Positions 13,353 to 55,506 of a DNA stretch of 64,000 nt are shown one piece after another (positions within the stretch are counted from its first letter, which is position 1; each line of letters begins with the position of its first letter). The DNA is from Acidobacteriota bacterium (lineage in GTDB: Bacteria; Acidobacteriota; Blastocatellia; Pyrinomonadales; Pyrinomonadaceae), in assembly GCA_003222945.1 (NCBI GenBank), contig QHXM01000072.1, positions 1 to 64,000 of the forward strand, given 5' to 3'. The notes beneath the pieces are model-generated. The model was not told the origin of the DNA. It saw nothing but the letters and a program-made list of their open reading frames with translations, and searched no databases. The translations under genes were made by a program, and so were the position numbers.

Positions 13353-13383
13353 TTCTGTCTAATTCAATTTGTTAGATAAATTG

Positions 13384-13438
13384 CCTACAGCTTTAGCTGT
13401 AGGAATGAGTAAGAAAAAAGATTTTGGCTTTAGCCGAA
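13384..13438 (+). repeat. REP-like double-hairpin element
   Basis: CCTACAGCT-TT-AGCTGTAGG perfect 9-bp stem (13384-13403), followed by TTTGGCT-TT-AGCCGAA (7 bp with one G:T; 13423-13438). Confidence 0.55.
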
Positions 13439-13449
13439 CCACGCGGCGC

Positions 13450-14694
13450 ATGACACTCAAAGACAAGCGCGTTCTCTTCATCTCCTACAACGGGATGCTT
13501 GACCCTTTAGGGCAGAGCCAGGTCATTCCTTATTTACGCGAGTTGAGTCGCATTGGATTGCGTTTCACTTTGCTGAGCTTTGAGCGCGATGCAGCCTGGG
13601 ATTCGGAAGGCGTTGCAAAGTGCGAGGAATTAAAAGAGCAGTTGAACGCATACGATATTGAGTGGCATCGCCTTCGTTATCACAGGCGGCCTTCGCTGCC
13701 CGCGACCCTTTACGATGTGATGGCGGGCACGCGCTTCGCAAGCCAGCTTGTTCGGAAGAATCGAATCGAGGTAGTTCACGCGCGAAGTCACGTCCCGGCC
13801 ACCATCGCACTCAACTTAAAAAGAAGGTTTCCGTTAAAGATGATCTTTGACGTGCGCGGGCTGATGGCCGAAGAGTATATGGACGCGGGACACTGGCGTG
13901 AAGGAAGCCTTAAATACCGTTTGACGAAACGAACCGAGCGGCGCTTGTTTGCGGCGTCGGACGGAGTGGTCACGCTGACAGAAGCCATCTGGCCTCTGAT
14001 AAAGAATTGGGATGGTCTGGGCGGGCGCAATGTCTCGCACGCGGTCGTTCCCTGCTGCGCCGACCTTGAAAGGTTCAGGTTTGATGCGGAAGCAAGAGCG
14101 CGACGGCGTGCGGAGTTGCAGGTCGAAGATAAGTTCGTAGTGGTTTACAGCGGCTCAATCGGCGGCTGGTACATGACAGGCGAGATGATGGATTTCTTCG
14201 CGTCGCTCAGAGCCGCCGACTCGCGCGCTCACTTTCTATGGCTGACGACGGGCGCGCACGATGTGGTTAAAAGTATGATGCAGGCGCGAGGGATAGCCGA
14301 GGCGGATTACACTGTGCGCTCTGCTTCGCCTGCGGACGTTTCGTCGTACCTATCCGCGAGCGACGCAGGAATGGCTTTCATCAAACCCTGCTTCTCTAAG
14401 CTCGCTTCGTCGCCCACGAAGACCGCTGAATATCTGGCCTGTGGGTTGCCGCTCATACTCAATGCCGGAGTCGGTGATTCAGACGTGCTCGCAACGCGCG
14501 AACGAGTCGGCACGCTGGTCCATGATTTCACTTCGGAAGAGTATGAGCGCGCCGCTTCGGAAATCTTGAAGATGGCGGAAGACGTGGAAGCGAAGCGTGC
14601 GCGGACGCGCGAGGTCGCGGAGAGATTGTTTGACGTGCGCGGCGTGGGGCTTGAGCGATACGCTCGCCTTTACGAAGAGGTGAGTCGTAGTTAA
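13450..14694 (+). CDS. Glycosyltransferase family 4
   Basis: ORF open from 13369, but conserved sequence begins after ATG 13450 (MTLKDKRVLFISYNGMLDPLGQSQVIPYL); C-terminal ASSPTKTAEYLACGLPLILNAGVGD. Confidence 0.85.
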   Translation: MTLKDKRVLFISYNGMLDPLGQSQVIPYLRELSRIGLRFTLLSFERDAAWDSEGVAKCEELKEQLNAYDIEWHRLRYHRRPSLPATLYDVMAGTRFASQLVRKNRIEVVHARSHVPATIALNLKRRFPLKMIFDVRGLMAEEYMDAGHWREGSLKYRLTKRTERRLFAASDGVVTLTEAIWPLIKNWDGLGGRNVSHAVVPCCADLERFRFDAEARARRRAELQVEDKFVVVYSGSIGGWYMTGEMMDFFASLRAADSRAHFLWLTTGAHDVVKSMMQARGIAEADYTVRSASPADVSSYLSASDAGMAFIKPCFSKLASSPTKTAEYLACGLPLILNAGVGDSDVLATRERVGTLVHDFTSEEYERAASEILKMAEDVEAKRARTREVAERLFDVRGVGLERYARLYEEVSRS

Positions 14695-14751
14695 GACAAA
14701 GCTTTTGCTTTTATTGACAAGTGAAGCGCGAGGCGATGCAAGACCTTTGTC

Positions 14752-14988
14752 GGCTGCGAGAACGTTATTGTAAGGCTTGTCAATGACATTTACATGCCTG
14801 ACAACGCCATTTACACGCCATACAGAGACGTTTACATGCATGTAAACGTCTCTGTATGGCGTGTAAACTTCAATTACATGCGTGTAAACGTTCTTGTATA
14901 GCTTGTAAACGTCATTTACATGCGTGACAACGGCGTTGCATGGCTTGTAAATGGCGTTGTCGGGCATGTAAATGGCGAAGTTGAGGCT
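14752..14988. repeat. Array of 21-bp degenerate repeats arranged head to head around a perfect 58-bp palindrome
   Basis: Core GTAAA[C/T] (or GACAAC) at 14842, 14863, 14884, 14905, 14926, 14947, 14968, 14989, each exactly 21 bp apart; mirrored units on the left at the same spacing; palindrome 14810-14867. Confidence 0.9.
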
Positions 14989-15054
14989 GTAAACAACGAT
15001 CTTTTATTCAATTAATTGCTGGCCTCACGCTGCAATGGAGTTCTTAGACCCTCT

Positions 15055-16158
15055 ATGAAAGTTCTGGCCTTAGCCTCGTATCCCGTACAGGCTGCCGCGA
15101 CGCGCTACCGTCTTGAGCAGTTTGTAGAGCCTCTGGCCGAACGCGGCATAGAGTTGGACGTGCGCCCGTTTCTCAACTCCAATCTTTTCACTTCGCTCTA
15201 CCGTCGCTCGGAATTGGCGCGCACGTCCTTCGGTCTTCTAAAGGCTGCGCTCAGGCGCGGCGATGATCTATTTGATGTGCGGGGCGCAGATGTAATCCTG
15301 GTGCAGCGCGAGGCTATGATGTTCGGTCCGCCCGTCTTTGAGTGGCTCTCGACGCGCGCCCTGCGACGCCCGATGGTTCTGGACTTGGACGATGCTACCT
15401 ACGTCTCATATACTAGCCCGACTTATGGACGCCTTGCGAGCGCCCTAAAATGGTTTAGAAAAACAGACGACCTGATTCGATGGGCGCGGGTTGTGACCTG
15501 CGGCAATCGCTATATAGCCGACTATGTGTCGAGTAAGAATGCGAGCGCCGTCATCATCCCGACTGTCGTTGACACGGACCGCTTTCGCCCTGTCGAAAGA
15601 GAGAGGGAGAACGACCCGCCGATCCTGGGTTGGATAGGTACGCATTCAACGTTTCCCTTTCTTGAGATGATCTTTCCAGCGCTCAGTGATCTTGCGCGCA
15701 CGCATCGCTTCAAACTGAAGGTGGTCGGAGCGGGTAAGCATGATGTTGAGATTCCGGGCGTAGAGGTAGAGAGCCTTGATTGGAAAATGGAACGTGATAT
15801 AGAGGATTTTCAATCTTTCGACATTGGCCTTTATCCGATTGACCTTGAGCGTTACGGTGCGGAATGGGTGATTGGCAAGTCAGGCTTTAAGGCCATACAG
15901 TACATGTCTGTTGGCATCCCCTATGTCGTCACACCCGTCGCCGCCTGCGCTGAAATCGGCGAAGCTGGCGTCACACATTTTTGTGCCGACACGCAAGGTG
16001 AGTGGCGCGAGTCTCTTGCGAGATTGATCTCGGACAGAGAGATGCGCCGGCGCATGGGCGAGGCCGGACGCCGCAACGCACTTCAGCATTACACGGTAGC
16101 AAAGCAGGCCGACACGCTCGCAGAAGTTTTGCGCGAAGCAGCCCGAAAGAATTTATGA
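15055..16158 (+). CDS. Glycosyltransferase family 4-like
   Basis: MKVLALASYPVQAAATRYRLEQFVEPL..., LGWIGTHSTFPFLE, GKSGFKAIQYMSVGIPYVVTPVA. Confidence 0.85.
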   Translation: MKVLALASYPVQAAATRYRLEQFVEPLAERGIELDVRPFLNSNLFTSLYRRSELARTSFGLLKAALRRGDDLFDVRGADVILVQREAMMFGPPVFEWLSTRALRRPMVLDLDDATYVSYTSPTYGRLASALKWFRKTDDLIRWARVVTCGNRYIADYVSSKNASAVIIPTVVDTDRFRPVERERENDPPILGWIGTHSTFPFLEMIFPALSDLARTHRFKLKVVGAGKHDVEIPGVEVESLDWKMERDIEDFQSFDIGLYPIDLERYGAEWVIGKSGFKAIQYMSVGIPYVVTPVAACAEIGEAGVTHFCADTQGEWRESLARLISDREMRRRMGEAGRRNALQHYTVAKQADTLAEVLREAARKNL

Positions 16159-28071: not shown

Positions 28072-29907
28072 ATGCCTTTCCAGTTTTTACAACTCGTCGC
28101 TGTTGCCGTTGCGTTTGCGCTGGCGCTCGTCCTGACCCCTATAGTTCGCGCGCTTGCGCGGCGCTGGGGTGCGGTTGCGCGCCCGAAAACGGACCGCTGG
28201 CACAAGAAGCCTACGGCGATGCTCGGCGGCGTCGCAATCTTTCTATCGGTCGCGACGGTAATTCTCTTTTATCTACTCTTCGTTCCGGCACGAGCCGACG
28301 AGATAGCAAGGCACGAGCGCACCTTTCTATGGATTATCTTGGGCGCGAGCGCATTTCTCTTCGCGGTGGGACTCGTTGACGATCTCTTTCACGCTAAGCC
28401 TTATCAGAAATTGATAGGACAGGTGATGGGCGCGGCCTTCGTGGTCTATTACGGATTGACTCTGCCCTGGACAGGCTCTGCCCCGGTCAACATGGTGATA
28501 ACGATCTTTTGGTTAATCGGAATCACTAACGCCGTCAATCTGCTGGACAACATGGATGGGCTTGCGCCAGGGATAGCAGCAATCTCGTCAATCTTTCTTG
28601 CTGTAAATTTTCTGGCAGGCTCTCAAGCGTCGGAGGCGATGGTGCTGGCCGTGTTCGCCGCCGCGCTCGTTGGCTTTCTAGTCTATAACTCGAACCCTGC
28701 ATCCATCTTCATGGGCGACTGCGGCTCTATGTTCATAGGGTTCTTTCTGGCGAGCACGTCTTTGATGAGCGTGGCGGGCGGGCGCTCGCGTAGTTTCCTG
28801 CCCGTTCTGGCCGTGCCCATACTGATTCTTTTCATCCCTATATTCGACACGACCTTTGTCACGGTTCTAAGAAAACTTTCGGGCCGCTCGGCCTCGCAAG
28901 GCGGGCGCGACCACACGTCGCATCGCCTTGTAGCGTTAGGTATGTCCGAGCGGCGAGCCGTGTGGATGCTCTACGGGTTCGCGGCGCTCTCAGGGCTTCT
29001 GGCGATGATTGCGCGCGAGATGAAGACGGACGTGAGTATTGCTGCGATCCTTGGGTTCACTATCCTGCTCACGTTGCTGGGCGTCTATCTTGCGGGCGTC
29101 AAAGTCTATGACGAAGAGGAGGTGAAGGCGGCGCACGATAAACCGCTCTTTGCTTTCCTGATTGATCTATCCTACAAGCGCCGCGTCTTTGAAGTCCTGC
29201 TTGATCTGGTGTTGATAGTTCTCTCCTATTACGGGGCTTATGTTCTGCGATTCGGTCCGGTGGGAGAGGCCGGGACGCTCAGAATTTTTTTACGCACGCT
29301 GCCCGTGCTGTTGTTTGTAAAGATGGCCGCCTTTCTGGTGATGGGCGTTTATCGCGGCATCTGGCGTTATACGAGCGTTGACGATCTGGTGGTCTTTGTC
29401 AAAGCAGTAGTCGTAGGCTCGGTTGCAAGCGCGCTGGCGGTCCTCTTCGCTTTTCGATTTGAGAGCGTGTCGCGCACGGTCTTTGTGCTGGACGGGCTTC
29501 TGATGTTCATGCTGCTTGCCGGAAGCCGTATGGCTTTCCGTCTGTTCCGTCAGGTTCTGCCCACACCGAAGGCGCGCGACGGATGCCGCGTGCTTATCTA
29601 CGGAGCGGGCGACGGGGGCGAACTGCTGTTGAGAGAAATCTTGAATAACCGCGAGTTGCAGTACGCGCCCGTCGGTTTCGTTGACGACGATCCTACGAAG
29701 AAGGGCAAAGTCATTCACGGCTTGCGCGTCTTTGGCGGCAACGGCATGTTGAGAAGCCTGTGCAGAGCGCAGCGCATTGACGAAGTGCTTATCTCAAGCT
29801 CACGCTTTACAGAAGAGCGAACAGCCGAAATCTTACGCGACTGCAAAGAGGAGCAGGTCACGCTCAAGCGAATGAGAATCAGAATCGAGGAAGTTAGTGA
29901 TGAATAA
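28072..29907 (+). CDS. Fusion: WecA/MraY-like polyprenyl-phosphate sugar-1-phosphate transferase + CapD/FlaA1-type membrane and Rossmann N-terminal region
   Basis: N-terminal DRWHKKPTAMLGGVAIF, NAVNLLDNMDGLA, FMGDCGSMFIGF, GGRDHTSHRL; C-terminal GVYRGIWRYTSVDD, RVLIYGAGDGGELLLREIL, VGFVDDDPTKKGKVIHGLRVFG; ends without the epimerase catalytic domain. Confidence 0.85.
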   Translation: MPFQFLQLVAVAVAFALALVLTPIVRALARRWGAVARPKTDRWHKKPTAMLGGVAIFLSVATVILFYLLFVPARADEIARHERTFLWIILGASAFLFAVGLVDDLFHAKPYQKLIGQVMGAAFVVYYGLTLPWTGSAPVNMVITIFWLIGITNAVNLLDNMDGLAPGIAAISSIFLAVNFLAGSQASEAMVLAVFAAALVGFLVYNSNPASIFMGDCGSMFIGFFLASTSLMSVAGGRSRSFLPVLAVPILILFIPIFDTTFVTVLRKLSGRSASQGGRDHTSHRLVALGMSERRAVWMLYGFAALSGLLAMIAREMKTDVSIAAILGFTILLTLLGVYLAGVKVYDEEEVKAAHDKPLFAFLIDLSYKRRVFEVLLDLVLIVLSYYGAYVLRFGPVGEAGTLRIFLRTLPVLLFVKMAAFLVMGVYRGIWRYTSVDDLVVFVKAVVVGSVASALAVLFAFRFESVSRTVFVLDGLLMFMLLAGSRMAFRLFRQVLPTPKARDGCRVLIYGAGDGGELLLREILNNRELQYAPVGFVDDDPTKKGKVIHGLRVFGGNGMLRSLCRAQRIDEVLISSSRFTEERTAEILRDCKEEQVTLKRMRIRIEEVSDE

Positions 29908-29910
29908 ATT

Positions 29911-29991
29911 ATGAATTATGAGTTTTGAATTTTGAATTAAAGGAGACGGAATCGTTTTCAATTCAAAACTCAAAACTCAAAACTCATAATT
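29911..29991. repeat. Heptamer-repeat inverted island 2
   Basis: ATTATGAGTTTTGAATTTTGAATT ... AATTCAAAACTCAAAACTCAAAACTCATAAT. Confidence 0.8.
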
Positions 29992-34320: not shown

Positions 34321-36141
34321 ATGACAGATTCCACAAGCGAACCACACGGCAGTCTGAACACAGTTCCAAAATTCTGCCTCGCAGCGATTCAAAGGCACGC
34401 GAAAGCTGATGCGCTCAACACGAAGAAGAATGGCGAGTGGCAGCACATCGCCGCAGAAACTTTCGCAGAGCGCGTGCGCCGAGTTGCGCTAGGTCTCAGT
34501 CAACTGGGAATCAAAGCAGGAGACCGCGTTGCGCTGCTTTCTGAGAATCGCCCCGAATGGTCAATCGTTGATCTGGGCATCTTGAGTCTTGGCGCGATCA
34601 ACGTTCCCATATACACCACGCAGGCTGTCGAACAGGTGCGCTACATTCTGGAGGATTCCGGCGCGCGGGCAATCTTCGTCTCAGGCCGCAGGGTCTTCAA
34701 CCACGCGCGTCCCGGACTCGAAGGGGTCGAGAGTTTAGAAAATCTAATCTTCTTCGATGCTGATGCCGTTGATCTTGTCGAAGGCGCAATAACTTTAGAG
34801 GGCCTTGAGGCGCGCGGGGCGGCGCGCGAACGCGTTGAGCCTCACGCATTCGACGCACTGTTAGCTCCGGGTCGCGGCGATGAGCTTGCGACCGTTATCT
34901 ACACGTCGGGCACGACGGGCGAGCCTAAAGGCGTGATGCTCACACACTCGAACTTTATCTCGAACGTGCTTTCGATTTCGAGCGCGCTTCCAATCTCCGC
35001 TGAAGACACAGCGCTTTCAGTTCTCCCGCTCTCGCACATCTTCGAGCGGACAGTTTTTTACGTCTTCTGCTCGATGGGAGTCTCCGTCTATTACGCCGCG
35101 TCGTTCGATGTCGTTGGCGAACACCTGCGCGAAGTGCGGCCCACGATTATGACAGCCGTGCCAAGGCTCTTTGAGAAGGTCTATCAACGCATCGTCAAGA
35201 AAGGAATGGCGGCGGGCGGCTGGAAAACAAAACTCTTCGCGTGGTCGCTCGCGGTCGGGCAAAGATATTCCGAACTCAAAGACAGGCACGAGCCACTGCC
35301 TCCGCTTCTTGAACTCAAGCACGACATAGCGAACCGTCTAGTCTTCTCTAAATGGCGTGAAGGCATAGGAGGCCGCCTTCGCTATTTCGTTTCCGGCGGC
35401 GCACCGCTCTCGCCCACGCTCTCGCACGCCTTCTGGTCCGCAGACATTCCAATCCTTCAAGGCTACGGCATGACGGAAACCTGCATAGTCTCTGCCAATC
35501 ATCCCGACGACAACAAGGTCGGCTCTGTCGGTCTGGTCTTTCCCGGAATCGAAGTGAAGATAGCAATGGACGGCGAGATTCTTGTGCGCGGTCCGAATGT
35601 GATGCGCGGCTACTACAAGCATGATGATGCGACGCGCGCTGTGATTGACGAAGACGGATGGTTCCAGACGGGCGATGTAGGCCACATGGACGCGGAGAGA
35701 CACCTTTACATCACGGACCGCAAGAAGGATTTGTTCAAGCTATCAAATGGCAAGTACGTCGCGCCGCAACTCGTAGAGAGCCTGATTAAGCAGAGCGAGC
35801 TTGTCAATCAGGTCGTCGTAATCGGCGCAGGCCGCAAACAGCCCGCAGCACTTATCGTCCCCGATTGGGAAGCACTCGCCAACGCAATGTCGGAAGCAGG
35901 CGGCTCGCGCCCGAAGTCAAAAATTGAATGGAGTCGTGACCCTGCGGCCACAAAGATTGTGCAGCGTGAAGTGGCAGAGTTAACGAAAGAACTTCACGAC
36001 TACGAACGCGTCCGCCGCATAGCGCTTCTCCCCGACGAGTTTTCAATAGACTCAGGAGAACTCACGCCCACGCTCAAGGTCAAACGCCGCGTTGTTGATG
36101 AAAAGTATCATCAGCTAATCGAAGAACTTTACAGAGAGTAA
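34321..36141 (+). CDS. Long-chain acyl-CoA synthetase (AMP-dependent)
   Basis: VIYTSGTTGEPKGVMLTHSNF, QGYGMTETCIVSANHP, GWFQTGDVGHMD, ITDRKKDLFKLSNGKYVAPQ. Confidence 0.93.
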   Translation: MTDSTSEPHGSLNTVPKFCLAAIQRHAKADALNTKKNGEWQHIAAETFAERVRRVALGLSQLGIKAGDRVALLSENRPEWSIVDLGILSLGAINVPIYTTQAVEQVRYILEDSGARAIFVSGRRVFNHARPGLEGVESLENLIFFDADAVDLVEGAITLEGLEARGAARERVEPHAFDALLAPGRGDELATVIYTSGTTGEPKGVMLTHSNFISNVLSISSALPISAEDTALSVLPLSHIFERTVFYVFCSMGVSVYYAASFDVVGEHLREVRPTIMTAVPRLFEKVYQRIVKKGMAAGGWKTKLFAWSLAVGQRYSELKDRHEPLPPLLELKHDIANRLVFSKWREGIGGRLRYFVSGGAPLSPTLSHAFWSADIPILQGYGMTETCIVSANHPDDNKVGSVGLVFPGIEVKIAMDGEILVRGPNVMRGYYKHDDATRAVIDEDGWFQTGDVGHMDAERHLYITDRKKDLFKLSNGKYVAPQLVESLIKQSELVNQVVVIGAGRKQPAALIVPDWEALANAMSEAGGSRPKSKIEWSRDPAATKIVQREVAELTKELHDYERVRRIALLPDEFSIDSGELTPTLKVKRRVVDEKYHQLIEELYRE

Positions 36142-36243
36142 GGCAAAAGGAAAAAGGCAAAAGTAAGGCGGAAGCCATCTTTAATCAAGTGGGTTTCCGC
36201 CTAGCTTTCCCTTTTACCTTTTTCCTTCTACCTTTTGCCTTCT
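36140..36243. terminator. Bidirectional hairpin built of heptamer repeats between convergent genes (island 3)
   Basis: AAGGCAAAAGGAAAAAGGCAAAAG ... CTTTTACCTTTTTCCTTCTACCTTTTGCCTT, with inner GGCGGAAGCC/GGTTTCCGCC stem. Confidence 0.75.
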
Positions 36244-37748
36244 TACGGCGTTGCCTTCTTCGTCATGGGCTGGCCTTCTGTGTCATAGACTTCGACGCTG
36301 CCGTATTTCGCAAGCACGTCGCGGGCTTTCGAGGCGTCGCCAACGGCTACGATTTGAAGGTTAGCAAGGTTCACGTAACGTTGTGCGGCGCGCTGAACGT
36401 CTTCGGCTGTGATCGAAGAGACCATCTGCGGGTACGTGTCCCAGTAATCCGCCGGAAGGTTGTAGAGCTTCTGCAAGACTATGTTCTGAAGAAGCGCGTT
36501 CGGCTGTTCAAGAGAGAGCGCGAAGCTTCCAACTATTGCGCGCTTTGCGTTCTCCAATTCCGTCGGACTCACCTTCTCATCGCGTATGCGTTTGAGTTCA
36601 TACATGAACTCGTGCATTGCGCCTTCGGTCACGTCCGTTCTCACCTCAGAGCTTGAGATTACCGTGCCTCTGAACTTAGAGCCGCCGAACTGGCTGTACG
36701 CGCCGTAGGTATAGCCCTTGTCTTCGCGCAGGTTCAGAAAGAGACGCGCCGCCGGACCACCGCCCAGGATTTGGTTCATCACGAGCACGGCGAAGTAATC
36801 GGGGTTCGTGCGCTCTATTCCAAGATTGCCGAGTTGAAGAACAGTCTGCACCGAGCCTGGACGATCAATCAACTGAATGCGTGCCGTTCCCTGCTCAGGC
36901 GCAGCGGGAATCTTCGTCTCAGGCACGTCAGTCTTCTGCCAATCGCCAAACGCCTTTTCAAGTTTCGGCATGATCTCTTTCAGAGTCACGTCGCCGACGA
37001 TTGCGAGCATGGCGTTGTTGGGTCGGTAGTAGGTTGAATGGAAGCGCGCTAAATCGGCGGAAGTTATCTTCTTGATTGATTCGACGGGCGGAACGATTAG
37101 CCCTGCCGGATGATTGCCGTAGATTGCGCGCTGGAAACGCTCGGCAGCGAGAAATTGCGGGATGGAGCGTTGAAACTGAAGCTGCGCAATCTGGCGCTGC
37201 TTGTACTTATCAATCTCCTCCTGCGCGAACTTCGGGTTGCGTATGACATCCGCGAAAATGTCCAGCGTCTGATCGAAATTTTCCACGAGGCCGGAGGTCG
37301 TAATGGTGCTGGTGAAAGTTGAAAGACCGGCGTTTGCTGCGAGCGTTGCGCCGATGGTGTCAACCTGCTCGGCTATATCTTTGCTCGTGCGCTTCTGCGT
37401 TCCTTCGCGCAAGATAGCTGCTGTGAACGATGCCAGCCCATGATAATCGTTAGGGTCTGAAAGTCCGCCGCTTAAGACCACCATCTGCATTGTGAATGTC
37501 GGAACGCGATGGCTCTCCAGTAGAATCACGCGCAGGCCGTTTGAGAGCGTGGCCTCTTCAGCCTTCGGCAGTTTGACTTTGAGAATCTCTTTGTTTACAG
37601 GCGCGCGACCCTTTATGTCTGCGCCTTTGACCGATTGGCCTTGCTGCGGCGGAGCGCCACCCTTCTGCGCCGCAATCGGCATGACGGCGAAGGCGAAGAT
37701 GATTAGAACCGCTGACAATCTGTTTCTGAACTCTGTAAATTTCTTCAT
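36243..37748 (-). CDS. M16-family peptidase-like protein (no HXXEH; probably the non-catalytic partner)
   Basis: LSNGLRVILLESHRVPTFTMQMVVLSGGLSDP...GLASFTAAILREGT; AMLAIVGDVTLKEIMPKLEKAFGDW. Confidence 0.88.
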   Translation of the reverse strand: MKKFTEFRNRLSAVLIIFAFAVMPIAAQKGGAPPQQGQSVKGADIKGRAPVNKEILKVKLPKAEEATLSNGLRVILLESHRVPTFTMQMVVLSGGLSDPNDYHGLASFTAAILREGTQKRTSKDIAEQVDTIGATLAANAGLSTFTSTITTSGLVENFDQTLDIFADVIRNPKFAQEEIDKYKQRQIAQLQFQRSIPQFLAAERFQRAIYGNHPAGLIVPPVESIKKITSADLARFHSTYYRPNNAMLAIVGDVTLKEIMPKLEKAFGDWQKTDVPETKIPAAPEQGTARIQLIDRPGSVQTVLQLGNLGIERTNPDYFAVLVMNQILGGGPAARLFLNLREDKGYTYGAYSQFGGSKFRGTVISSSEVRTDVTEGAMHEFMYELKRIRDEKVSPTELENAKRAIVGSFALSLEQPNALLQNIVLQKLYNLPADYWDTYPQMVSSITAEDVQRAAQRYVNLANLQIVAVGDASKARDVLAKYGSVEVYDTEGQPMTKKATP

Positions 37749-39696: not shown

Positions 39697-41751
39697 ATGA
39701 CGAAAAAAGGCTATGGCGCTCTACGCGCTGCTGCCATATGGACAGCAACTCTCCTCTGCCTGTTAATTCCTGCCATGACGCAGGCTCAACAGACAGGCCG
39801 CGCACGCTTCGATGTCACGAATTACCGCATTGAGGCTCAACTCTTACCGGACCAACACCTGCTGCGCGCGGGCGCTGAAGTAACTTTTACGCCGCTCGAC
39901 GCAACTCGTTCCGTTATTTTCGAGTTGAACGGCTCGCTCAAGGTCACAAAAATTGAGCGCAACGGGAAGCCCCTGACCAACTTCGTTCAGGACGCGGCTG
40001 GCGCTGACACATCAATCGGACCGAATGTGCGCGTTGATCTGGGCGAGGTTGTCCCGGCAGGTCAGCCCATAGTCCTCAGATTCCAGTGGGAGGGCGGCCT
40101 GACCTCTCCCGAAGGCGGACCGCTTGCGACCAAGCGCCTCGCTTACGTCGGACCGGAAGGCTCTTACCTGATGTACGCCGCGCGCTGGTTTCCCTTCCAC
40201 GATTACGCAGCGGACCTTGCGACCTCAGATATTACAATCATCGTGCCCACAGGGATGCAGGTCGCAGGAACGAGTGATGACCCCGTCACGCCGCAAGTAA
40301 GCAAAGACGGCAACACGCGCTTTCGCTTCACTCATCACAAACCAGTATTGCCCGGCAATTTCGTCGCTGGTCAGTACATCACAAGGTCTCTTAAGTTCGG
40401 CAACTACGACATACAGTTCTACGCGAAAGTCGGAAGCGAGAATCGCGTGGAGAATTATGCAGAGTTGATGGGAACGGCCTTGCAGTTCTACACGCGCGAG
40501 TACGGCCAGCCCGCGTTCGGAACGCGCATGGTCGTTGCTCAGATTGACGACGAGAGCCTTGACACTTACAGCGGACTGGGCATGGTCTTTCTCGCCTCGA
40601 AACTTTTCGACCCGTCACGCCCCGTGCCTGAAGAGAAGTTGCAGCGCGAAGTAGCGTTTCAATGGTGGGGTCAGACCGTAGGCTTGAAATCTTTTGACGA
40701 CGCATGGATTTCGCAGGGGCTTGCGGAATGGAGCGCGTTCGCCTTGCGTGAATCGAATCTTCAGGGCGGAGCGTTAGACGCAGCGCAACGTGAAGAGCAG
40801 GAGCGAGCATTAACATTCGAGCAGACTGCTTCGATTGCTCGCGCGCCTTCTGCTTTAGACGATCAATCGGCTGCATATCAGTCCATAGTCTTCTACAAAG
40901 GCGCTATGGTCTTTCGTATGCTGCGCGAAACTCTAGGCAAAGATAAGTTTCGCCAACTGCTTCGCACATTCTTGGATCAGTATCGCGGCAAGAACGCTTC
41001 GATTGATGACTTTGAAAAACTCACGACGCAGATTGCCGGTCAGAACATGCGCTACTTCTTCGCGCAATGGGTCGAAGGAACGGGCGTTCCTGAGTTCTCG
41101 TCTGACTATCAGATCATACGCACGCGCACCGGAAAATTCCGCACGCGCGGCACAATCAAACAGAACATTGATAACCTGAACATGCCCGTCGAAGTCATGC
41201 TCCGAAGTGAGGGTGGCGACAATCCTATGACCACTTTGCAGCTTCAGGAGAAGAGCGAGGACTTTGATTTCGAGTCAACCGGACAGCCCATAGAGGTGGT
41301 CGTTGACCCGAACGATAAAATCCTGCACATGTCGGACGACATCAAGGTTGCGGTCGTTGCGCGTCGCGGCATAGAGCAGTTTCATGAAGGTCAATACGCA
41401 GAAGCTCAACAGCAGTTGGAAGCCGCGCTCAAGATGGACAAGTCGAACGCGTGGGTCTATTACAACCTGGGGCTTCTATACATGGAGCAGCGCAACTGGC
41501 AACTCGCGCTCGACAATTTCCAGGCAGCGCTTGATAACAGCAGCGCCAAACCCGATTGGCTGGACACTTGGGCGCACATCAAGCGGGGCAACGCCTACGA
41601 CGCGCGCGGTATGCGCCCGCAGGCCGTAAACGAATACAACAAGGCTCTGCAAACGGGAAGCAACTACGACAACGCGCAGGCTGCCGCGAAGAAGTTTCTG
41701 GCAACGCCTTACAACCCGCGAGAGACTACGGCGCAGTCATCTCTAAATTAA
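39697..41751 (+). CDS. M1 aminopeptidase-like protein with degenerate zinc motif and C-terminal TPR
   Basis: TYSGLGMVFLASKLFD...LQREVAFQWWGQTVGLKSFDDAWISQGLAEWSAF; C-terminal TPR (WVYYNLGLLYMEQRNWQLALDNFQAAL). Confidence 0.85.
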   Translation: MTKKGYGALRAAAIWTATLLCLLIPAMTQAQQTGRARFDVTNYRIEAQLLPDQHLLRAGAEVTFTPLDATRSVIFELNGSLKVTKIERNGKPLTNFVQDAAGADTSIGPNVRVDLGEVVPAGQPIVLRFQWEGGLTSPEGGPLATKRLAYVGPEGSYLMYAARWFPFHDYAADLATSDITIIVPTGMQVAGTSDDPVTPQVSKDGNTRFRFTHHKPVLPGNFVAGQYITRSLKFGNYDIQFYAKVGSENRVENYAELMGTALQFYTREYGQPAFGTRMVVAQIDDESLDTYSGLGMVFLASKLFDPSRPVPEEKLQREVAFQWWGQTVGLKSFDDAWISQGLAEWSAFALRESNLQGGALDAAQREEQERALTFEQTASIARAPSALDDQSAAYQSIVFYKGAMVFRMLRETLGKDKFRQLLRTFLDQYRGKNASIDDFEKLTTQIAGQNMRYFFAQWVEGTGVPEFSSDYQIIRTRTGKFRTRGTIKQNIDNLNMPVEVMLRSEGGDNPMTTLQLQEKSEDFDFESTGQPIEVVVDPNDKILHMSDDIKVAVVARRGIEQFHEGQYAEAQQQLEAALKMDKSNAWVYYNLGLLYMEQRNWQLALDNFQAALDNSSAKPDWLDTWAHIKRGNAYDARGMRPQAVNEYNKALQTGSNYDNAQAAAKKFLATPYNPRETTAQSSLN

Positions 41752-41856
41752 GAATTAAGAACTAAGAATTAAAGTTGGAAGACCAGAGAGAGCGCTTCCT
41801 GGTCTTCCATTTTTTACTTTTCAATTCTTAATTTCTAACTCTTAATTCTTAATTCT
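41746..41856. repeat. Heptamer-repeat inverted island 4 with nested hairpin
   Basis: AATTAAGAATTAAGAACTAAGAATTAA ... AATTCTTAATTTCTAACTCTTAATTCTTAATT; inner GGAAGACCAG/CTGGTCTTCC perfect 10-bp stem. Confidence 0.8.
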
Positions 41857-42133: not shown

Positions 42134-42186
42134 CAGTGAATAGTGAATAATGAATAGTTAAGAACCGCTTCTCGCTATTCACTATC
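42134..42186. repeat. Heptamer-repeat island 5 between convergent genes
   Basis: CAGTGAATAGTGAATAATGAATAG ... CTATTCACTAT. Confidence 0.65.
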
Positions 42187-54393: not shown

Positions 54394-54457
54394 AAGGTAA
54401 AAGGAAAAAGGGAAGAGAAAGAGCGCGCCTCTCATCTTCCCTTTTTCCTTTTACCTT
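54394..54457. terminator. Bidirectional hairpin of heptamer repeats between convergent genes (island 9)
   Basis: AAGGTAAAAGGAAAAAGGGAAGA / TCTTCCCTTTTTCCTTTTACCTT perfect 23-bp stem. Confidence 0.85.
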
Positions 54458-54468
54458 TGCCTTTTGCC

Positions 54469-55506
54469 TTACTTCGTGCCTTCGACAATGCTCATAGGTG
54501 ATTCCGTCGGAATAACTCTCGTCAACTTGAATCCGCCAGCAGCGAAGAGGTCTCTATACTCAGCCTCAGTCCGCTCGCGCCCGCCCGTCATGACGAGCAT
54601 TTGCAGGTCCATCATCTTGGCAAACGATGGTTCGTTGCCTTCGGGCACAACTGTTTCTACAAGGAGCAAGCGGCCTCCATCCACCATTGCGCTGTGGCAG
54701 TTCTTCAGAATCAAACGAGCGCGCTCTTCATCCCAGTCGTGAATGATTAGCTTCATCACGTAGGCGTCGCCGCCCGTCGGCACTGAATCGAAGAAGTCGC
54801 CGCCCAAGACTTCCGCCCGGTCCGATACTCCTTCCGCAGCGAGCCGCTCTTTCGCGCCTTCGACGACCGTTGGAAGATCAAATAGGACTCCGCGCGTGCT
54901 CGGATTCGCTTTGAGAATAGCGGAGAGAAGTGCGCCGTGACCGCCGCCCACGTCAACCAGTTTTCTGATTGAAGAGAAATCGTATGCGGGGACGACCGCC
55001 TTGATGACAGCTTCCGAAAGGTTCGTCATCGCTTCGTTGAAAGGCTCGAACGATTCCTTGTGCTCCGCGTAGTAGGGGAAGACTTCCGCGCCGTTTGCGA
55101 GCGTGAAAGCGGTCTCGCCTGTTCTTACGCTTTCGAGAAGATTGCCCCATGCCTTCCAGGACGAATTTTCCGCGAGGTGAATCGCCATCGCGCGGAATGA
55201 GTTCGGGCCTGACTGCAAAGGTTCTGCAAGCGGCGTTAGCCCAAAACGCTTCTGCTCATCCTCTGCAAAGATTCCGAGTCCGGCCAGAGCGCGCAGAACG
55301 CGATAGAGCATGAAGGCATTCGTGTTCGTAGCTCGCGCAAGCTCTTCGCTTGTCTTCGGTCCGTCTTTCAGAAGGTCCGCTATGCCTAAGCGTGCCGCTA
55401 CATAGATTGATTGCGTGGTCCAGAAGCCCGTAGCCATCTGAAATAGAGCCATCTGCGGCGGCACATCGGGCTGATTGGGTGCAGTTCCTTTTTCCGTTGC
55501 ACTCAC
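54469..55506 (-). CDS. SAM-dependent O-methyltransferase (acetylserotonin/hydroxyneurosporene OMT-like)
   Basis: LVDVGGGHGALLSAILKANPSTRGVLFDLPTVV, GGDFFDSVPTGGDAYVMKLIIHDWDEERARLILKNC. Confidence 0.9.
   Translation of the reverse strand: MSATEKGTAPNQPDVPPQMALFQMATGFWTTQSIYVAARLGIADLLKDGPKTSEELARATNTNAFMLYRVLRALAGLGIFAEDEQKRFGLTPLAEPLQSGPNSFRAMAIHLAENSSWKAWGNLLESVRTGETAFTLANGAEVFPYYAEHKESFEPFNEAMTNLSEAVIKAVVPAYDFSSIRKLVDVGGGHGALLSAILKANPSTRGVLFDLPTVVEGAKERLAAEGVSDRAEVLGGDFFDSVPTGGDAYVMKLIIHDWDEERARLILKNCHSAMVDGGRLLLVETVVPEGNEPSFAKMMDLQMLVMTGGRERTEAEYRDLFAAGGFKLTRVIPTESPMSIVEGTK

Follow-up and report, generated by a model that had tools for sequence, protein, structure and literature searches.

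We show here that a repeat in a 64,000-nucleotide stretch of an Acidobacteriota genome (hereafter the window) is real, and we conclude with high confidence that it is a gene-less ('solo') copy of a dispersed, apparently undescribed DNA element. The complete form of this element is a strictly 21-bp-phased array of dyad units, followed by a leader and the gene for a small, mostly helical orphan protein of unknown function, and arrays of this kind were found upstream of such genes in at least five bacterial phyla (Acidobacteriota, Chloroflexota, Bacteroidota/Ignavibacteria, Pseudomonadota and Cyanobacteriota). How the element works is far less certain, and our reading of its mechanism is tentative.

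The 21-bp array of the window and its relative on contig C134

The array lies between two glycosyltransferase genes, and the features at the locus are as follows.

13369-14694, plus strand: upstream neighbour GT1, a GT4-like glycosyltransferase (longest ORF, the true start may lie later), with its TAA stop at 14692-14694, where the array begins
14695-14994 (approximate ends), plus strand: 21-bp-period dyad array of about 14 units without phase slip, with oriented unit consensus C.TGTAAAcGgC.tTGtaagG
14810-14867, no strand assigned: perfect 58-bp palindrome at an orientation switch inside the array
14692-15020, plus strand: extent of homology with the gene-linked array of contig C134 (locus L008, reverse strand)
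14479-14967, minus strand: open frame read in an earlier note as heptapeptides, judged spurious (the period is divisible by 3)
15055-16158, plus strand: downstream neighbour GT2, glycosyltransferase group 1 (likely ATG at 15055), in the position that the small gene has on C134

The observation made in the earlier note was confirmed in all its coordinates. GTAAAC/T cores are present at 14842, 14863, 14884, 14905, 14947, 14968 and 14989, with GACAAC at 14926, all exactly 21 bp apart, and 14810-14867 matches its own reverse complement at 100% over 58 bp (E=3e-23). Self-match at lags 21 and 42 is 0.52-0.56 over 14701-15010, while lags that are not multiples of 21 reach at most 0.33. Within the window only 2 of 212 half-overlapping 600-bp segments pass the lag-21 threshold, and a census of the window found this array only, although at least eight short arrays of 7-bp units are also present (including 29907-29986, 36140-36246, 41746-41856, 42135-42158 and 54440-54470), reminiscent of cyanobacterial heptamer repeats. 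Two refinements are needed. First, the array is longer than the note had described, as degenerate GACAA/TTGTC units run back to the GT1 stop codon. Second, its description as mirrored around the palindrome is only loosely true: units occur in both orientations in one register (><><<<>>><>>> for the 13 scored units), but global mirror symmetry does not exceed that of unit-order shuffles (p=0.18 for the window, with 1 of 37 arrays at p<0.05).

A second array in the same genome, on contig C134, aligns with the window array end to end, differing by substitutions and mostly by whole 21-bp units. On C134 the array lies directly upstream of a gene for a small orphan protein (~120 aa) starting MAKNETRRIAPS, of which the contig holds the first 80 codons. 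The gene is cut by the contig start (L008:1-241) and the end of contig C126 (locus L053) carries a matching C-terminus, probably reflecting one gene split by assembly. In the window the small gene is absent and GT2 follows instead. The array alignment is strong, and the weaker 3' flank ends near where the Shine-Dalgarno and the small gene would begin. However, the 3' flank alone scores 21, which is not above shuffles, and this end of the homology is therefore suggestive only; that the window copy once had the gene is an inference. The C134 array (around L008:345-400) holds an equivalent perfect palindrome that differs by three changes in each arm, all mirrored. An assembly inversion had been named in advance as a possible source of the palindrome, and this second copy makes such an artefact unlikely, although no sequencing reads were examined.

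Arrays upstream of small orphan proteins

To ask whether the array belongs to a class, we searched further genomes with the unit and with the small protein. A weak hit in a different genus (genome G018) revealed a 21-bp array of different letters, again upstream of a homologue of the same small protein, whereas a weak blastn hit in genome G014 lies in unrelated, non-periodic sequence. Viral contigs gave only chance matches to the unit, without arrays. Searching with the small protein gave matches in 8 of 40 genomes, with 21-bp arrays of mostly unrelated sequence upstream of most copies. A wider profile scan gave 43 loci, titled as Acidobacteria, Chloroflexi groups, Cyanobacteria, Bacteroidetes/Ignavibacteria, Proteobacteria, Planctomycetota and Limisphaerales, and arrays were found in the first five groups. 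The cyanobacterial case is a Nostoc plasmid locus, which scores 0.95 at lag 21; no relative of the small protein was found in viral contigs or phages, and one was found on a plasmid.

Of 32 loci with enough upstream DNA to be tested, 21 have a lag-21 array upstream at threshold 0.5 and 0 of 32 have one downstream, and lags 19, 20 and 22 never pass. Two further small-protein families met in the census, A (~121 aa) and B (~217 aa), show the same arrangement in 12/19 and 14/19 loci, with none downstream. Lag-14 arrays, like the short 7-bp-unit arrays of the window a side observation, also occur downstream of small genes at three loci (L061, L067 and L203). Profile comparison suggests that A is distantly related to the C134 family, hereafter family 1 (probability 89%), and B perhaps (41%). 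The families have no Pfam or NCBIfam model, no convincing relative was found in PDB or PADLOC, and the AlphaFold model of family 1, which is all-helical, gave no significant match to a known fold. Family B proteins (e.g. L109:7088-7744) have a helical-looking N-terminus and a C-terminus that by eye resembles an Ig/Fn3-like domain, without a database match. No neighbouring gene is conserved among the loci.

Gene-less copies are common. In this genome (G000), each of three gene-linked arrays tested has same-unit copies elsewhere without the gene: C134 matches the window, C300 matches C74 and C20, and C135 matches C156 and C40. The small-protein profile finds no gene on the contigs of these copies, and the C20 copy runs to just before the start-codon region. 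Aligned copies have shared ends; those on C156 and C40 are very alike, and the likeness of two gene-less arrays on different contigs (L162:6670-6967 and L163:5172-5515) suggests recent dispersal of the array alone. In an unbiased sample, genome G023 has 16 arrays of period 20 or 21 in 400 kb and G000 has 5 in 312 kb, and only one in each sample is followed by a recognised family gene. The G023 arrays include strict 20-bp-period intergenic arrays (L100:15854-15994, L101:7097-7313, L101:19240-19401, L102:13702-13849 and L106:7331-7502) and one 21-bp array inside a 686-aa open frame (L112:14315-14488), the only one of the G023 21-bp arrays seen inside a long ORF. Solo arrays lie between convergent genes (3'-3') more often than background intergenic gaps (10/18 against 20/122, p=7e-4), which is not where operators sit. 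Most arrays therefore do not look like promoter operators where they now are; this supports dispersal and is the main weakness of a purely regulatory reading.

Unit architecture, coding and secondary structure

Unit sequences differ between loci while the architecture does not. First, the phase of the second half of an array equals that of the first half in 29/29 arrays tested (289 units). Two Accumulibacter genomes (L083 and L085) differ by one 21-bp unit in otherwise near-identical arrays, a variable-number locus. Second, dyad symmetry is significant (p<0.05) in 28/37 arrays and in 19/24 of a replication set, so that roughly a fifth to a quarter of arrays show no significant dyad. Lastly, when registered only on the odd dyad axis, 19 dyadic arrays of mostly unrelated sequence (the window and C134 arrays are homologous and both included) share one information profile, high at 3-7 bp from the axis and low at the axis and at 9-10 bp (p=0.0002 excluding the axis base, which symmetry forces to vary). 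Registration maximises symmetry and could bias this profile, but the contrast between 3-7 and 8-10 bp is not produced by symmetry itself. In families A and B the profile is broader and the test weaker (replication in 18 arrays, p=0.02), and five solo arrays gave no signal (p=0.55). The geometry places inverted half-sites alternately 10 and 11 bp apart, on one face of the DNA.

The interpretation offered in the earlier note was partly supported. Its statements that the array is not CRISPR, that 21 bp represents two helical turns with the cores on one face, and that no described element fits were all upheld, the phase being strictly kept. It had further proposed that copies be compared for shared period, head-to-head symmetry and position near polysaccharide genes; period 21 is indeed shared, global mirror symmetry is not found as a class, and a special link to polysaccharide genes is not supported since other copies have unrelated neighbours. 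The homologous array upstream of a small gene and the cross-phylum protein families had been missed.

A tandem heptapeptide gene (21 bp being seven codons), which the note had raised both as a reading and as a condition that would overturn a regulatory one, is highly improbable. One open minus-strand frame is present in the window and one plus-strand frame in C134, but stop-free frames over 37 arrays number 78 against 72.3 expected when unit columns are permuted, the peptides are unrelated between loci, and arrays lie in gaps between longer ORFs. The window frame runs antisense into GT1 and has no Pfam hit above cutoff; translation was not measured. Neither are RNA hairpins or DNA cruciforms a likely general function. 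The perfect palindrome with mirrored changes between two loci, an RNA fold of z=-10.8 for the whole window array and slightly positive arm pairing in four solo arrays of G000 speak for such structures. Against them, arms within a unit pair no better than arms of random units (Stouffer z=-1.3, 58 tests), foldability follows from any dyadic repeat, and Rfam matches are miRNA models below gathering score. A third possibility is that any bendable motif repeated every two turns yields a curved segment that organises the nucleoid or promoter without a sequence-specific binder. The strict period with unrelated sequences and the phase invariance would fit, but this reading, which we consider improbable, does not predict dyad symmetry, a fixed half-site zone or units flipped in register, and GC-rich arrays lack A-tracts (curvature itself was not computed).

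Interpretation and related systems

We infer, tentatively, that the most likely function of the gene-linked form is that of a cooperative protein-binding array upstream of the small gene. Each 21-bp unit carries two inverted half-sites of about 5 bp whose centres lie 10 bp apart, with 11 bp to the next unit, so that half-sites recur every ~10.5 bp on one face of the helix. In this view a dimeric DNA-binding protein, with locus-specific sequence preference but constant geometry, would bind cooperatively along the array and control the promoter of the small gene, gain or loss of a whole unit being tolerated but a phase slip not. Units would multiply, be lost and be flipped in register by replication slippage or template switching, with the palindrome a product of that, and gene-less copies would be spread by an unknown copying process and persist mainly at gene 3' ends. 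The period, phase invariance, dyad geometry, linkage to small genes and existence of solo copies come directly from our sequence analyses, whereas the binder, its cooperativity, the control of transcription and the copying machinery are postulated. Taken as a whole, identity and mechanism together, this explanation is about as likely as not. Although the arrays have the helically phased half-sites and constant geometry of a cooperative operator (not replicated on the five solo arrays), no binder has been identified, and neither binding nor transcription was assayed. The small protein is a plausible binder only for family 1 (basic, mean pI 9.0), as family B is acidic (mean pI 5.8), and with no known fold matched self-binding is doubtful. 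Unit sequence tracks protein identity in family 1, but the close pairs are mostly Accumulibacter, and it does not in families A and B (pairs with 60% or more identity have mean similarity 0.38 against 0.28 by chance); we therefore do not claim a dedicated protein-unit pairing. A sigma70-like promoter between array and ATG is clear in Accumulibacter, but promoter signals are weak elsewhere (8 of 28 at p<0.1).

The chief rival, which we regard as the less likely alternative, is a selfish MITE/REP-like satellite of no benefit to the host, spread by copying, tolerated at gene 3' ends and homogenised by slippage, with the small genes as cargo or relics of its mobiliser. Gene-less copies with shared ends, the convergent bias of solos, the turnover of unit sequence under a constant architecture, the high copy number in G023 and the lack of a shared partner gene are consistent with this. 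However, a neutral satellite should gain indels and drift in period, and a position upstream of three small-protein families in several phyla, never downstream, is not expected of random insertion. No terminal inverted repeats or target-site duplications were established, and the shared ends alone leave a transposon-relic origin undecided.

Comparison with known systems gave no full match. Plasmid iterons and par centromere arrays (e.g. RK2/R6K iterons and ParR-bound 20-bp parC repeats) are likewise tandem repeats of about two helical turns, private in sequence to each locus, upstream of a small protein gene and constant in phase. The present arrays were found mostly on chromosomal contigs of MAGs, in several copies per genome of which most are gene-less, without a shared partner gene, and the protein model has no strand as a ribbon-helix-helix ParR would need; in the absence of binding data these observations neither place the arrays among iterons or centromeres nor exclude them. 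REP/BIME elements with RAYT transposases also comprise palindromic dispersed units in both orientations, with solo copies biased to gene 3' ends and a gene-linked form, but here the array is strictly contiguous, its sequence differs per locus, and the linked protein has no nuclease relative, nor was an associated HUH (Y1) transposase found. PARCELs are tandem palindromic repeats with a punctate distribution across unrelated bacteria and suggested horizontal transfer, yet they are coding, 25-residue repeats inside ORFs, whereas our arrays are 21 bp, intergenic and without a coding signal. CRISPR and TIGR arrays are tandem arrays next to a protein family; the present units are contiguous without spacers and no cas-type neighbour occurs at the window (TIGR was compared by unit structure only). 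Cooperative operator arrays have inverted half-sites about 10 bp apart in phased repeats upstream of a gene, while the arrays described here have about 4-16 contiguous units, locus-private sequence, gene-less copies at 3' ends and no known regulator.

We regard the element as categorically new in the sense that no known kind tested here fits and that literature searches of an open-access library, which did not cover subscription papers and preprints, found no description. It is possible, though somewhat less likely than not, that it represents a cross-phylum class in which architecture (21-bp phase, dyad half-sites at fixed distance) is conserved while sequence is free to change, recognised by a fast-evolving DNA-binding partner and attached to several families of orphan helical proteins, with gene-less copies dispersed through genomes. 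An intergenic repeat whose spacing and symmetry are kept across at least five phyla while its letters are not would be missed by sequence searches. It offers a simple periodicity signature for finding many more loci, an entry to orphan protein families of unknown function, and a testable case of selection on DNA geometry rather than sequence.
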